DNA of 64,000 nucleotides from Leucothrix arctica. Lineage in GTDB: Bacteria > Pseudomonadota > Gammaproteobacteria > Thiotrichales > Thiotrichaceae. Under the pieces are notes generated by a model. The model searched no databases, was not told the DNA's origin, and was given only the letters and a program-made list of their open reading frames with translations. Each line of letters starts with the position of its first letter. Position 1 is the stretch's first letter. The DNA is taken from positions 62,001 through 126,000 of the forward strand of contig NZ_QGKL01000043.1 of assembly GCF_003172895.1 (NCBI RefSeq). Direction: 5' to 3'. Below, piece by piece: positions 48,801 through 52,222 of this stretch. The position numbers and the translations under genes were made by a program.

Positions 48801-48837
48801 AAAAAAGCACCCGTTGAGTGTCCCCAACGAGTGCTTT
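48801..48837 (-). terminator. Terminator of the bufferin operon
   Basis: AAAGCACCCGTTG pairs with CAACGAGTGCTTT with one mismatch. On the minus strand it is followed by a T6 run, right after the DoxX gene. Confidence 0.88.
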
Positions 48838-48863: not shown

Positions 48864-49397
48864 TTATCGTGAATCTTTTCTCTCGAAACCAAACAAGTGG
48901 TCCAAAGACAACTTACCAGGGCCGATAATAACAAGTGCAGCTGCAACACCAGCCCACCACATCGCTGGGTTAACCCAGTGAGACCATGTTGGGAAGACAG
49001 CTAGCTGGATAAACACCGTCATTACCAAAATACCTAACGCTGCAAATCGAGTGAACAAACCGAAGATAAGCAATAACGGCAATGCAATCTCAGCGACACC
49101 CGCTGTCACAGCAAAGAACTTAATGTAAGCAACCGTTGGAGACCCTTCAACATACTCTAATGTTTTAGGATCACACAGTAGCAATGCGCCTTCACGCACT
49201 TCTTCTGGACAAAAGAACTCATACATAAACAGGTCATATACACCCGGATCAGGCTTGAACCAACCATTCCATTTAGCCAGTCCTGAGTAAAAGAACACGC
49301 TAAAGATCTGCCAGCGAAGACCCAGCAATGCTAATGGTTTGAAGACGATGTTCAGCCACTCAAATATAGTTATGTAGAAAGATTTTATTGCACCCAT
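48864..49397 (-). CDS. DoxX family membrane protein of the bufferin operon
   Basis: This 177-residue membrane protein has four helices of the DoxX type (WQIFSVFFYSGLAKWNGWFKPD, ITAGVAEIALPLLLIFGLFTRFAALGILVMT, VNPAMWWAGVAAALVIIGPGKLSLDHLFG). DoxX proteins are quinone-linked oxidoreductase subunits in some systems and are regular companions of BufB/BufC genes. It is last in the operon, 29 bases after bufC, before a strong terminator. It may supply or take electrons during precursor maturation, which is inference. Confidence 0.85.
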   Translation of the reverse strand: MGAIKSFYITIFEWLNIVFKPLALLGLRWQIFSVFFYSGLAKWNGWFKPDPGVYDLFMYEFFCPEEVREGALLLCDPKTLEYVEGSPTVAYIKFFAVTAGVAEIALPLLLIFGLFTRFAALGILVMTVFIQLAVFPTWSHWVNPAMWWAGVAAALVIIGPGKLSLDHLFGFERKDSR

Positions 49398-49426: not shown

Positions 49427-50233
49427 TTATTTAAGAAGATGTGCGTTCAATAACTCAGCAAACAACGTCGATACATCGAAGTCTTCATCCAAAGACGTCG
49501 CTGCTTCAGTTGCTGAGTCAAAACTTGCGGTTTGTTTCAAGCTAGACATAAACGCAGACTCAACGTCTGACAGTGGCTTTGCTTGAACTTGTAAATTACT
49601 TTGCCAAAAAATGACGGCGTTTTTATGAGCGCTTAACTCAATCTTTTGGTCTTCTTCCATCTGGCCAAAACGTAGCTGGCTCCACAGTTCAAATATGTCG
49701 AACTCAAGATTCACTATCTGAGTAGAGTCAACCAACGCCATTGGTAACTCCGACAAGTCTTCACCCCGTGAAATTATGCCCTGCACAACTTCTAGCGTTA
49801 AAAAGTCATCACCATTTGCATTGAGCGCTTGCATCCATGCTTGGTCCAAACGACAAAGATCAGGTACGTAAGGATAGCTGACAATCAGTTCTGCAACCTT
49901 AACGTGTAGAAATTCTACAAAACTTGTATTACTTGTATCTGGGTCATCCGCAAAGCCATAACCAATGAGTGTCGCTGATGCTGGTGGCGCTTCATTGACA
50001 TAGCTCCCTGCCAGTTGCGCGAAATAATCCTCGCCCCATAGTTTTACTAAGGTAGGAAAGTTACTTTCAAGTGCAGAGGCACTGGCTCGAATAAAGCCAT
50101 TTCGGTACACACTAAGAAACGATGCGGGTCGGTCACCGCCAAGATAAGCATTAAGCTTGTCACGCTCCCCTGTCTGCATAAAGCGCTCAAAAGCACCGAT
50201 ATAGTCATCGTGAGAATAGCGGTTATCTGCCAT
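49427..50233 (-). CDS. bufC: BufC, DUF2063 partner protein of the MNIO enzyme
   Basis: This 268-residue protein has the N-terminal DUF2063 (HvfC/BufC) domain: FERFMQTGERDKLNAYLG, FLSVYRNGFIRASASALESNFPTLVKLWGEDYFAQLAGSYV and PYVPDLCRLDQAWMQA. In characterised systems this partner binds the precursor and presents it to the MNIO enzyme. It overlaps bufB by 11 bases. The C-terminal domain is about 100 residues and more variable, as in relatives. Confidence 0.9.
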   Translation of the reverse strand: MADNRYSHDDYIGAFERFMQTGERDKLNAYLGGDRPASFLSVYRNGFIRASASALESNFPTLVKLWGEDYFAQLAGSYVNEAPPASATLIGYGFADDPDTSNTSFVEFLHVKVAELIVSYPYVPDLCRLDQAWMQALNANGDDFLTLEVVQGIISRGEDLSELPMALVDSTQIVNLEFDIFELWSQLRFGQMEEDQKIELSAHKNAVIFWQSNLQVQAKPLSDVESAFMSSLKQTASFDSATEAATSLDEDFDVSTLFAELLNAHLLK

Positions 50234-51149
50234 GATTCACGTTCTCCAGAGGTGCTTTTGTAATTGCTTCTAGTAAAGAAGAAGCGCGGTTACGTTCCTC
50301 CATCAACTCGCTAAACTCTGGCACATTGTCATCACGCTCTAGCAGCACAGGCTTTGGCCCAAGTACTTGCATTGCGGTTTCTAACAACTTCCAGACAGCT
50401 TCATCAACGGGTGATGCATGACTATCAATCAATAGCTTATCTGGAAAGTTTGGGTCAGGGTCAAAACCAGCGATGTGGATCTCGCCCACTTTCGACGGGT
50501 CTAACGCTGACAGGTATTGCCCAGGATCTAAGTCAGTATTGCGATAACTTAGGTATAAATTATTGACGTCGACCAATAGCCCTGCGCCAGTTCGATTGGC
50601 AGCTTCCATTAAAAAGTCAGCTTCATCCATTTCTGAAATAAAGTCTAAATAGTTCGTTGGATTCTCAATCAGTATTGGGCGGCCAATGGCCTCTTGGTAA
50701 CGGTCAATACCATCGCACAAGCAGTTGAGTGCTTGCTGCGTTCTAGGTAGTGGTAATAGGTCAGAGAAATAGGCATGCTGACTGGTTGACCAAGTCGCAT
50801 GTTCTGACACCATCACTGGATTAAAGCGTTTAACTAACGCGCTAACTTGCGCCAAATGGCGACTGGTAATAGCAGCGGGCTTCTCGGTAAAAGAACCGAG
50901 AGAGCCTGCGACCCCATGAAAACTCAATGGGAAATGTTCTGCAATTGCTTGCAGATAGCGCAATCTTGGCCCACCTTGAACGAAATAGTTTTCTGTATGC
51001 ACCTCAAACCATAGATCTGGGAAGGATTCTTGCTGAACACTAGGGTCAGCGAATGAGAGTGCATCATCATAATGCTGGGGTTTTAAATTAATCCCAGCGC
51101 CTGACAGTGTTGACTGTTTCGAATCAAATTGGACCAAGTGACTATTCAT
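50223..51149 (-). CDS. bufB: BufB, multinuclear non-haem iron oxidase (DUF692)
   Basis: This 308-residue TIM-barrel enzyme is of the MNIO/DUF692 family. Metal-binding segments are visible in order: EVHTENYF, LSFHGVAGS, VSEHATWS, LIENPTNY, LLVDVNNLYLS, EIHIAGFDP, LIDSHASPV and LLERDDNVPE. MNIO enzymes use two or three irons and O2 to rebuild Cys side chains in ribosomal peptides, forming oxazolone/thioamide or thiooxazole groups. The gene starts 3 bases after the second precursor and overlaps bufC, as in bufferin operons. Its likely substrates are the two BufA proteins just upstream. Confidence 0.93.
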   Translation of the reverse strand: MNSHLVQFDSKQSTLSGAGINLKPQHYDDALSFADPSVQQESFPDLWFEVHTENYFVQGGPRLRYLQAIAEHFPLSFHGVAGSLGSFTEKPAAITSRHLAQVSALVKRFNPVMVSEHATWSTSQHAYFSDLLPLPRTQQALNCLCDGIDRYQEAIGRPILIENPTNYLDFISEMDEADFLMEAANRTGAGLLVDVNNLYLSYRNTDLDPGQYLSALDPSKVGEIHIAGFDPDPNFPDKLLIDSHASPVDEAVWKLLETAMQVLGPKPVLLERDDNVPEFSELMEERNRASSLLEAITKAPLENVNHGR

Positions 51150-51152
51150 TAT

Positions 51153-51515
51153 TTACTTCATGTTGCGTTCTAGAGCAGTTTTAGATGCAGAACCTTCTGG
51201 TGTAAGGATATGCTCACAAGTACCTTTAGGTGCATATGTCCATGCATTACCTTGGAAGTCAATTGTTGAAGTACCCTGACAACTTGTACCTGGGCCTGCT
51301 GCACAATCATTTTCAGCGGTAAGCGCGATACCGAAACACTTGTCTTTACGACCTGAAATTGCTGCGCCCTGAACCCAAGCGTTAAAGCTTTGCTTTACAC
51401 TTGCAGAAGCATCTGCAGAAATACGTAACTGGTCGTTTGGCTTAGCCGCCGCGACTGATGTTAAAACGGCCAATGCTGCACCAGCGATAAGTGCTGAATT
51501 TGTAGACTTTTTCAT
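51153..51515 (-). CDS. bufA: BufA, DUF2282 bufferin precursor without repeat tail
   Basis: I chose the ATG at 51515 because it starts a signal peptide ([24 protein letters not shown]) and GAGAG lies upstream; the frame is open further back. This 120-residue DUF2282 protein has four Cys in [18 protein letters not shown] and GTCEHI, the usual modified positions in bufferins, which bind copper after maturation by BufB/BufC. It is nearly the same as the first 120 residues of the next precursor, so they are recent duplicates. It ends ERNMK with no tail. Confidence 0.9.
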
Positions 51516-51616: not shown

Positions 51617-52222
51617 TTACTTAGCTGCACATGGGTTAGCTGCACAAGGATTCTTTGCTGCACATGGGTTTTTAGCTGCGCAAGGATTTTTAGCCGCACA
51701 TGGGTTAGCTGCACAAGGATTCTTTGCCGCACATGGGTTTTTAGCTGCGCAAGGATTCTTTGCTGCACATGGGTTAGCCGCGCAAGGATTCTTTGCTGCA
51801 CATGGGTTAGCCGCGCAAGGATTAGCTGCACATGGGTTAGCTGAACAAGGGTTGCTACCGCCGCTGATGTTACGCTTCAACGCTGTTTTTGATGCTGGGC
51901 CAGCTGGAGTAATGATGTGCTCACAAGTGCCTTTAGGTGCATATGTCCATGCGTTACCTTGGAAGTCCGATGTTGAAGTACCCTGGCAACTTGTACCAGG
52001 ACCTGCTGCACAATCGTTCTCAACTGCTAGAGCGATGCCGAAGCACTTATCTTTACGACCTGAAATCGCGCCACCAGCAACCCATGTGTAAAAGCTCTTC
52101 TTTTGAGCGGCACTCGCGTCATCAGAGATACGAAGCTGGTCATTTGGCTTAGCTGCTGCTACAGAAGTTAAAAGAGCAAGTGCTGCACCTGCGATTAATG
52201 CGTTGTTAGTAGATTTTTTCAT
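51617..52222 (-). CDS. bufA: BufA-like DUF2282 precursor with 14 [11 protein letters not shown] Cys repeats
   Basis: The ATG at 52222 is preceded by AAAGGATTGATAACC and begins the signal peptide [20 protein letters not shown]. Residues 1 to about 122 form the DUF2282 body with four Cys ([24 protein letters not shown]). After KRNISGGS a tail of about 78 residues contains 14 units of [11 protein letters not shown] or NPCSA, one Cys each. The tail is not part of ordinary DUF2282 proteins. It resembles in style the repeated Cys motifs (EGKCG type) of HvfA-class MNIO substrates. It is the promoter-proximal gene of the operon. Total Cys outside the signal peptide is 18. Confidence 0.9.
51620..51856. 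repeat. Tandem 15/18-base coding repeats in the precursor tail
   Basis: On the plus strand, GCTGCACATGGGTTA-like and GCTGCACAAGGATTCTTT-like units alternate; each encodes NPCAA or NPCAAK on the minus strand. Units are similar but not identical at DNA level. Such a tract could change in unit number by slippage or recombination. Confidence 0.85.

Follow-up and report, generated by a model that had tools for sequence, protein, structure and literature searches.

The closest described systems to the gene studied here are the bufferins, which sequester periplasmic copper via thiooxazoles derived from Cys residues; in Buf1, the central Cys are the targets of the posttranslational modification and the first and the last Cys form a disulfide (PMC12452194). 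The examples of Buf1 fusions given in section 14 of that paper are cytochrome c/FGE-sulfatase, cytochrome c, Buf1/Buf1 and MerC fusions, and a tail of NPC (Asn-Pro-Cys) repeats is not among them. The copper-induced gig operon of Cupriavidus metallidurans codes for a small periplasmic protein with four Cys, a DUF2063 protein and a DoxX-like protein (PMC10304878), and from this gene content we infer that gigPABT is a bufferin operon; the paper uses neither the name DUF2282 nor DUF692. Short repeated Cys motifs are found in the oxazolin/fontiphorin (EGKCG) precursors, which are encoded beside an MNIO and a DUF2063 protein (PMC13097082) and in which every repeat tested was modified (PMC13097082, PMC12538549).

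We analyzed a stretch of 64,000 nucleotides from Leucothrix arctica (contig 38, NZ_QGKL01000043.1, positions 62,001 to 126,000; in the following the window), which carries the genes for a tailed BufA, an untailed BufA, an MNIO, a DUF2063 protein and a DoxX protein in this order and on the same strand (Table 1), the tailed gene lying 101 bp upstream of its untailed paralogue. An earlier note on the same DNA had described the tailed gene as the first one of an MNIO operon and its product as a DUF2282 body with four Cys followed by 14 regular Cys units. Gene order and Pfam domains bear out the former, translation, PF10048 and tandem repeat detection (TRF) confirm the latter, and the gene was also placed correctly at 51617–52222, with the reading frame running on the minus strand from an ATG at 52222 to a stop at 51617. 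PF10048 scores 71.7 bits on the tailed BufA against a gathering cut-off of 22.4, and the PF05114, PF09836 and PF07681 matches beside it all exceed their cut-offs; with model NF050167 (MNIO_BufB) BufB reaches 306.9 bits, just under the cut-off of 310. A terminator-like hairpin follows the DoxX gene as a consensus match, in a scan that gave six sites in the region compared to a mean of 4.0 in shuffles, and the same scan found none between the two bufA genes. Judged by gene order and domain content this is a bufferin operon, which shares with the Buf1 systems the DUF2282 body, the four Cys, the signal-like N-terminus and the BufB/BufC/DoxX content but differs from them in the 78-residue NPCAA(K) tail, the 14 additional Cys and the second, untailed precursor. 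Outside the operon, the same genome contains three more MNIO matches, one of them partial, and two more DUF2282 matches on contigs 19 and 22 (L047, L048).

Table 1. Features of the bufferin operon in the window, in the direction of transcription (positions of the window).
Feature	Position	Strand	Description
Tailed BufA1-type precursor	51617..52222	(-)	201 aa; signal-like N-terminus, DUF2282 body and NPCAA(K) tail
DUF2282 domain of tailed BufA	51914..52054	(-)	residues 57-103; PF10048 E 5e-20
ISGGS linker before the tail	51854-51868	(-)	
Tail of tailed BufA	51620..51853	(-)	14 NPC[AS]A(K) units, 14 Cys, residues 124-201
Untailed BufA paralogue	51153..51515	(-)	120 aa; shares 84% identity with the tailed body
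BufB, MNIO (DUF692) enzyme	50223..51149	(-)	PF05114 E 7e-83
BufC, DUF2063 partner protein	49427..50233	(-)	PF09836 E 9e-12
DoxX-family membrane protein, final operon gene	48864..49397	(-)	PF07681 E 5e-11
Terminator-like hairpin after DoxX	48804..48837	(-)	15 pairs; consensus match only

The tailed BufA has 18 Cys, four in the body and 14 in the tail. The body Cys (60, 71, 79 and 100) are invariant in all eight aligned BufA sequences, and Cys71 precedes Ala-Ala as the tail Cys do. By inspection, the N-terminus is hydrophobic and ends in an AAA-K type site. The tail consists of one NPCSA, five NPCAA and eight NPCAAK units, so that Lys is present in eight of them, and it is detected as a tandem repeat in two TRF rows with scores of 303 and 358, which excludes a chance origin. 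All five third codon positions vary between the units while only one amino acid changes (Ser in unit 1), the array contains neither a stop nor a frameshift, and pN/pS among the 14 units is 0.019, a value that comes from units of a tandem array, which are not independent. With this caveat the array fits a translated sequence under protein-level selection, and the variable third positions, the single residue difference and the low pN/pS together indicate that the tail is due neither to chance nor to drift. The genome is a draft of 44 contigs, so the exact number of tail units could be affected by the assembly. An AlphaFold model of the tailed BufA built from eight sequences was uninformative (pLDDT 36) and was left unused.

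For the distribution of the fusion we used 57 relatives, a sample of 370 genomes of the class and 50 genomes picked for the motif NPCAAKNPC, 47 of which also match the tailed protein. Four operons from the same genus and two from the same family have a single untailed BufA followed directly by MNIO, DUF2063 and DoxX, and the tail is absent in all seven BufA aligned with the tailed one (these six and the window paralogue), so that the lineage of the window holds one bufA more than these relatives, and it is this additional copy that gained the tail. The earlier note had proposed to look for DUF2282 domains followed by NPC repeats elsewhere, and with the tailed protein as query no second fusion was found in the 57, 370 and 50 genomes, a single match over the body and the complete tail being given by the window's gene alone; bodies too distant from the query could be missed in this search, and a few other body matches extending beyond a stop codon were not counted as fusions. 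By these comparisons, the tailed BufA combines two Cys-peptide systems in a hybrid that is specific to this lineage. Among the loci compared, the best two DNA matches of the tail are cytochrome arrays from the genus Leucothrix with 76–78% identity. We considered a recent copy of the cytochrome array present in the same genome and rejected it, as the codon usage of the two differs: the cytochrome array has AAT CCA TGC GCT GCT in 17 of its 18 NPCAA units and the tail uses other codons. The near-uniform codons of the cytochrome array suggest its recent homogenisation. The tail units resemble those of a cytochrome in another genome (G004), the common unit being AAT CCT TGC GCG GCT, and with regard to codon choice an older Leucothrix-type source of the tail is possible, the alternative being convergence through synonymous codons.

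NPC arrays are found far beyond this operon. Scanning genome contigs for NPCAAKNPC gave at least 119 stretches, and the matches listed come mostly from alpha-, beta- and gammaproteobacteria but also from Rokubacteria, Nitrospinota and cyanobacteria. In 112 of the 119 stretches among the matches listed we found 139 open frames with at least three NPC, which can be roughly divided into 57 short, 37 plus 11 cytochrome-like, 21 P460-like and 13 other frames, using simple regular expressions that include some shadow frames; the one protein scanned for the P460 label scored below the Pfam cut-off. As the array occurs on cytochromes and P460-like proteins as well as in short secreted peptides, it is a portable Cys-repeat module that different exported proteins carry. 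The genome of the window itself encodes a SoxA/TsdA-like cytochrome c of 276 aa with 19 NPC units on contig 31. In the cyanobacteria Plectonema and Richelia (L132, L168), NPC(A/G)K-type repeats precede a thioredoxin-like part as judged by reading; the Plectonema genome gave no DUF6969 match.

The commonest neighbour of the NPC arrays is DUF6969 (PF22308), which is present in 46 of the 119 stretches among the matches listed. DUF6969 matches occur in 40 of the 50 NPCAAKNPC genomes versus 30 of the 370 class-sample genomes, a comparison that mixes taxa. From the ten NPC genomes in which it was not detected, one (Halotalea, L091) has just a single chance NPC match, and three class-sample genomes (G142, G355, G152) carry variant NPC repeats with no DUF6969 detected. 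Among the 57 relatives, DUF6969 occurs only in the six genomes with verified NPC proteins (Fisher P 3e-8), yet these six are not independent, since five of them belong to one genus and the NPC and DUF6969 genes are adjacent. The 78-residue stop-to-stop frame with NPCLSQ repeats in G044 was left uncounted here and its inclusion would give six of seven instead of six of six; weak tail matches in two other relatives were not counted as NPC (a Lys-Pro repeat in G036, and a 35% match with three stops in G016). In the class sample, the tail matches in G212, G448 and G217 proved to be something other than NPC repeats, those in G412, G150, G137 and G169 were left out of reading, and a frame with NPCHR-type repeats in G360, a genome with no DUF6969 match, was left unjudged. 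NPC and DUF6969 occur together with no MNIO match in the isolates Marinobacter changyiensis, Marinobacter sp. CHS3-4, Vreelandella utahensis, Stutzerimonas stutzeri CLN100 and Nitrosomonas mobilis. Judged by neighbourhood and genome content, the usual partner of the NPC arrays is DUF6969 and not MNIO. In the genome of the window, the sole DUF6969 match (contig 31, 9503-10090, E 3e-74) is located directly upstream of the cytochrome with 19 NPC units (L040, 7393-8991). None was found in the window or beside the repeat gene of the tailed BufA, and any action of DUF6969 on the tail would therefore be in trans.

The association was also analyzed in the opposite direction, starting from DUF6969 at 49 places (28 of the 30 class genomes, with G246 and G439 left out, and 21 further matches from a phylum sample). 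An automatic test required a frame on the same strand within 1.5 kb with at least three Pro-Cys and a hydrophobic N-terminus, and it was positive at 20 of the 28 class and 10 of the 21 phylum places, compared to 1 of 104 strand-segments from elsewhere, which was the tailed bufferin itself, and, on the strand opposite to DUF6969, 1 of the 49 segments (G741). Reading added three places from the class, namely G194 with an NPC cytochrome 0.94 kb away, G215 with a frame at a contig end and G227, and three from the phylum (G769, G668 and G765, on the other strand at 1.3–1.5 kb), none of these six having passed through the control. An x-Pro-Cys repeat protein is thus found beside DUF6969 at 36 of the 49 places by automatic test and reading, and Cys repeats without Pro at four more (G114, G109, G528, G788) raise this to 40 of 49. 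G408 has a weak Cys-repeat neighbour, and the surroundings of DUF6969 gave no Cys-repeat peptide in G162, G195, G465, G822, G523 (at a contig edge), G592, G804 and at the second place in G774.

The repeat motifs near DUF6969 vary by lineage and the Pro-Cys is nearly constant. Short peptides with RGGNPCAPS/D repeats adjoin DUF6969 in L206, L207 and L208 (G325, G227, G400) as a lineage-specific Pro-Cys precursor form, and in L209-L217 and L219 it is adjoined by membrane-anchored peptides with a shared DHTRH-like segment and SPCGL/SPCSL/NPCTL-type repeats. The secreted Pro-less peptides of L257 and L258 (G528, G788) have Cys repeats of the AEGCCAAEGCC and GCAACAAGC types. Another small protein, which begins with a signal-like segment and has a PCQFLE/GCQFVE motif, is encoded beside DUF6969 or bufferin genes (L220, 7687-8136; L223, 7287-7796) and gave no Pfam match at E 0.01. 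Near the membrane-anchored peptides Pfam also confirmed a rhodanese in L213-L215, together with a sulfur transporter in L214 and L215.

Pfam lists DUF6969 as a domain of unknown function. In 46 sequences H87, H89, E95, G97, H98, F99, H100, F102, H132, G142, N151, W153, V154, W186 and L201 are invariant, and by inspection the protein from the genome of the window has no signal-like N-terminus. The DUF6969 structure model is confident (pLDDT 92.6, pTM 0.89) and places H87/H89, H98/H100 and H132 on or just after the successive strands 82-92, 95-104 and 130-138; this placement would agree with a single metal site, for which a conserved His/Glu/Asn set is typical. Sequence searches gave no solved relative, and fold searches with the model had no match in Foldseek at E<=0.001 and a best Z of 4.2 in a second search, which does not by itself prove a new fold. 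A search by name found no published account of DUF6969/PF22308, a provisional result as subscription journals are thinly covered, and a search by motif letters found, among the papers listed, only unrelated uses and no published system for the NPC repeats. None of ten DUF6969, NPC or x-Pro-Cys proteins tried was matched by an NCBIfam model above its cut-off. By these comparisons the DUF6969/Pro-Cys pair may be categorically new.

The bufferin genes and the NPC/DUF6969 genes are neighbours in several genomes. From the 17 NPC genomes having an MNIO, five (G063, G082, G092, G099, G106) have it within 8 kb of NPC/DUF6969 genes, versus an expectation of about 0.34 that assumes at most three NPC places per genome and a distance of ±10 kb, and in G205 a distance of 0.64 kb separates the DUF6969 match from the MNIO match. 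G063 and G099 carry on one strand and in this order the genes for an NPC cytochrome, DUF6969, DUF302, a sulfur transporter, DUF2282, MNIO, DUF2063 and DoxX together with extra genes, all named by similarity and the transporter and DUF302 of G063 also by Pfam. In G082, mercury-type-like translations were seen by reading between the cytochrome and DUF6969. As the two modules are neighbours in six other genomes and fused here, the fusion in the window represents a Rosetta-stone case. The tailed BufA shares with the NPCAA(K) cytochromes and peptides paired with DUF6969 the repeat unit and the tandem Asn-Pro-Cys (14 of them) in a predicted exported protein, but it differs from them in that its array forms the C-terminus behind a DUF2282 body and the DUF6969 gene lies outside the operon.

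Our leading explanation, which we regard as evenly poised between right and wrong, is that the tailed BufA is a hybrid precursor, the body of which is processed by BufB-BufC and the tail by DUF6969 to give a two-part periplasmic buffer. In the tailed BufA a duplicated Buf1-type bufferin body is fused to an NPCAA(K) array of the DUF6969 system, and the precursor would be made in the cytoplasm, where BufB-BufC might turn the two central body Cys into thiooxazoles as in known bufferins. DUF6969, a putative enzyme, would mature the Pro-Cys units of the tail, or could hold the tail for export, before the matured protein is exported by Sec. In the periplasm it could buffer a soft metal, most likely Cu(I), or sulfane sulfur, with the body as the high-affinity site and the tail providing capacity. 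A multi-Cys metal or sulfur sink is a plausible role. More tentatively, DUF6969 could in general be a Cys-directed maturation enzyme for secreted x-Pro-Cys proteins in Proteobacteria and perhaps beyond, with the tailed BufA serving two unrelated Cys chemistries; we lean somewhat against this wider proposal.

It could also be possible that the tail Cys are unmodified thiols in a metallothionein-like or sulfane-sulfur-binding arm and that DUF6969, instead of modifying Cys, serves as a chaperone, a reductase, a metal loader or a regulator. Free or metal-bound Cys could work unmodified in NPC arrays on c-type cytochromes and P460-like proteins, ten of the 50 NPC genomes gave no DUF6969 match, and in L214 and L215 the peptide-DUF6969 pair is located between the sulfur transporter (PF04143) and the rhodanese. 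These sulfur neighbours, together with the array on a SoxA/TsdA-like domain in the genome of the window, make sulfur handling a serious alternative to copper, and the sulfur genes around some of the DUF6969 pairs speak against copper as the sole role. However, the tight pairing of precursor and partner at 40 of 49 places, as well as an invariant His/Glu/Asn set in a protein that lacks a signal-like N-terminus, looks like a maturation enzyme, which many unmodified metallothioneins do without, and we consider unmodified tail thiols to be rather unlikely.

A further possibility is that BufB-BufC modify the Cys of the tail as well as those of the body, resulting in one precursor with up to 16 thiooxazoles. 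The tail is part of a precursor from the same MNIO operon, the Ala-Ala after Cys71 of the body resembles the context of the tail Cys, the tested EGKCG repeats were all modified as mentioned above, and MNIO operons are neighbours of NPC genes in five of the 17 genomes having both. The earlier note had named NPC tails occurring with no DUF692 partner as evidence against such a modification, and precisely this was found, with no PF05114 match in 33 of the 50 NPCAAKNPC genomes; the 17 carriers compare with 220 of the 370 class-sample genomes, a rough comparison of different taxa. Moreover, MNIO lies inside only one of the 119 array stretches among the matches listed, each stretch being at most 8 kb, and in G063, G092, G099 and G106 it is outside the array stretch yet within 8 kb. 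The captophorin enzyme FonBC did not tolerate Pro anywhere in its 5-mer repeat, as stated in PMC13097082, but the same paper describes little conservation around the Cys of DUF2282 sequences and at the corresponding position in the partner MNIOs (PMC13097082), so that this intolerance may not carry over. Thus, MNIO modification of NPC arrays is not supported as a general rule, MNIO action on this one tail is compatible with the data, and we consider it improbable. The idea from the earlier note of a bufferin/HvfA hybrid holds for the bufferin-type precursor in an MNIO operon and fails for the HvfA part: the translation contains no EGKCG motif, and the tail belongs to a different module with a different usual partner. 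From the oxazolin/fontiphorin precursors it also differs in the NPCAA(K) motif itself and in the many array genomes with no MNIO. Finally, a neutral accident, in which recombination brought repeat DNA like that of the NPC cytochromes to the end of the duplicated bufferin gene and left a functionless tail, would agree with the occurrence of the fusion in one genome only and with the Leucothrix cytochrome arrays as best DNA matches, but it is very improbable in view of the low pN/pS with all third positions variable, the intact array and the six other genomes in which the two systems are neighbours.

Returning to the tailed BufA as a hybrid of two systems, the fusion and the recurring gene neighbourhood connect the DUF6969/Cys-repeat family to the bufferins. 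If this explanation is right, one odd gene reveals a second family of secreted Cys-repeat peptides with DUF6969 as their dedicated partner, the precursors of which could be found by looking beside DUF6969, and it would provide a substrate-enzyme pair that is open to test. The tailed BufA itself would then be a natural two-chemistry scaffold.
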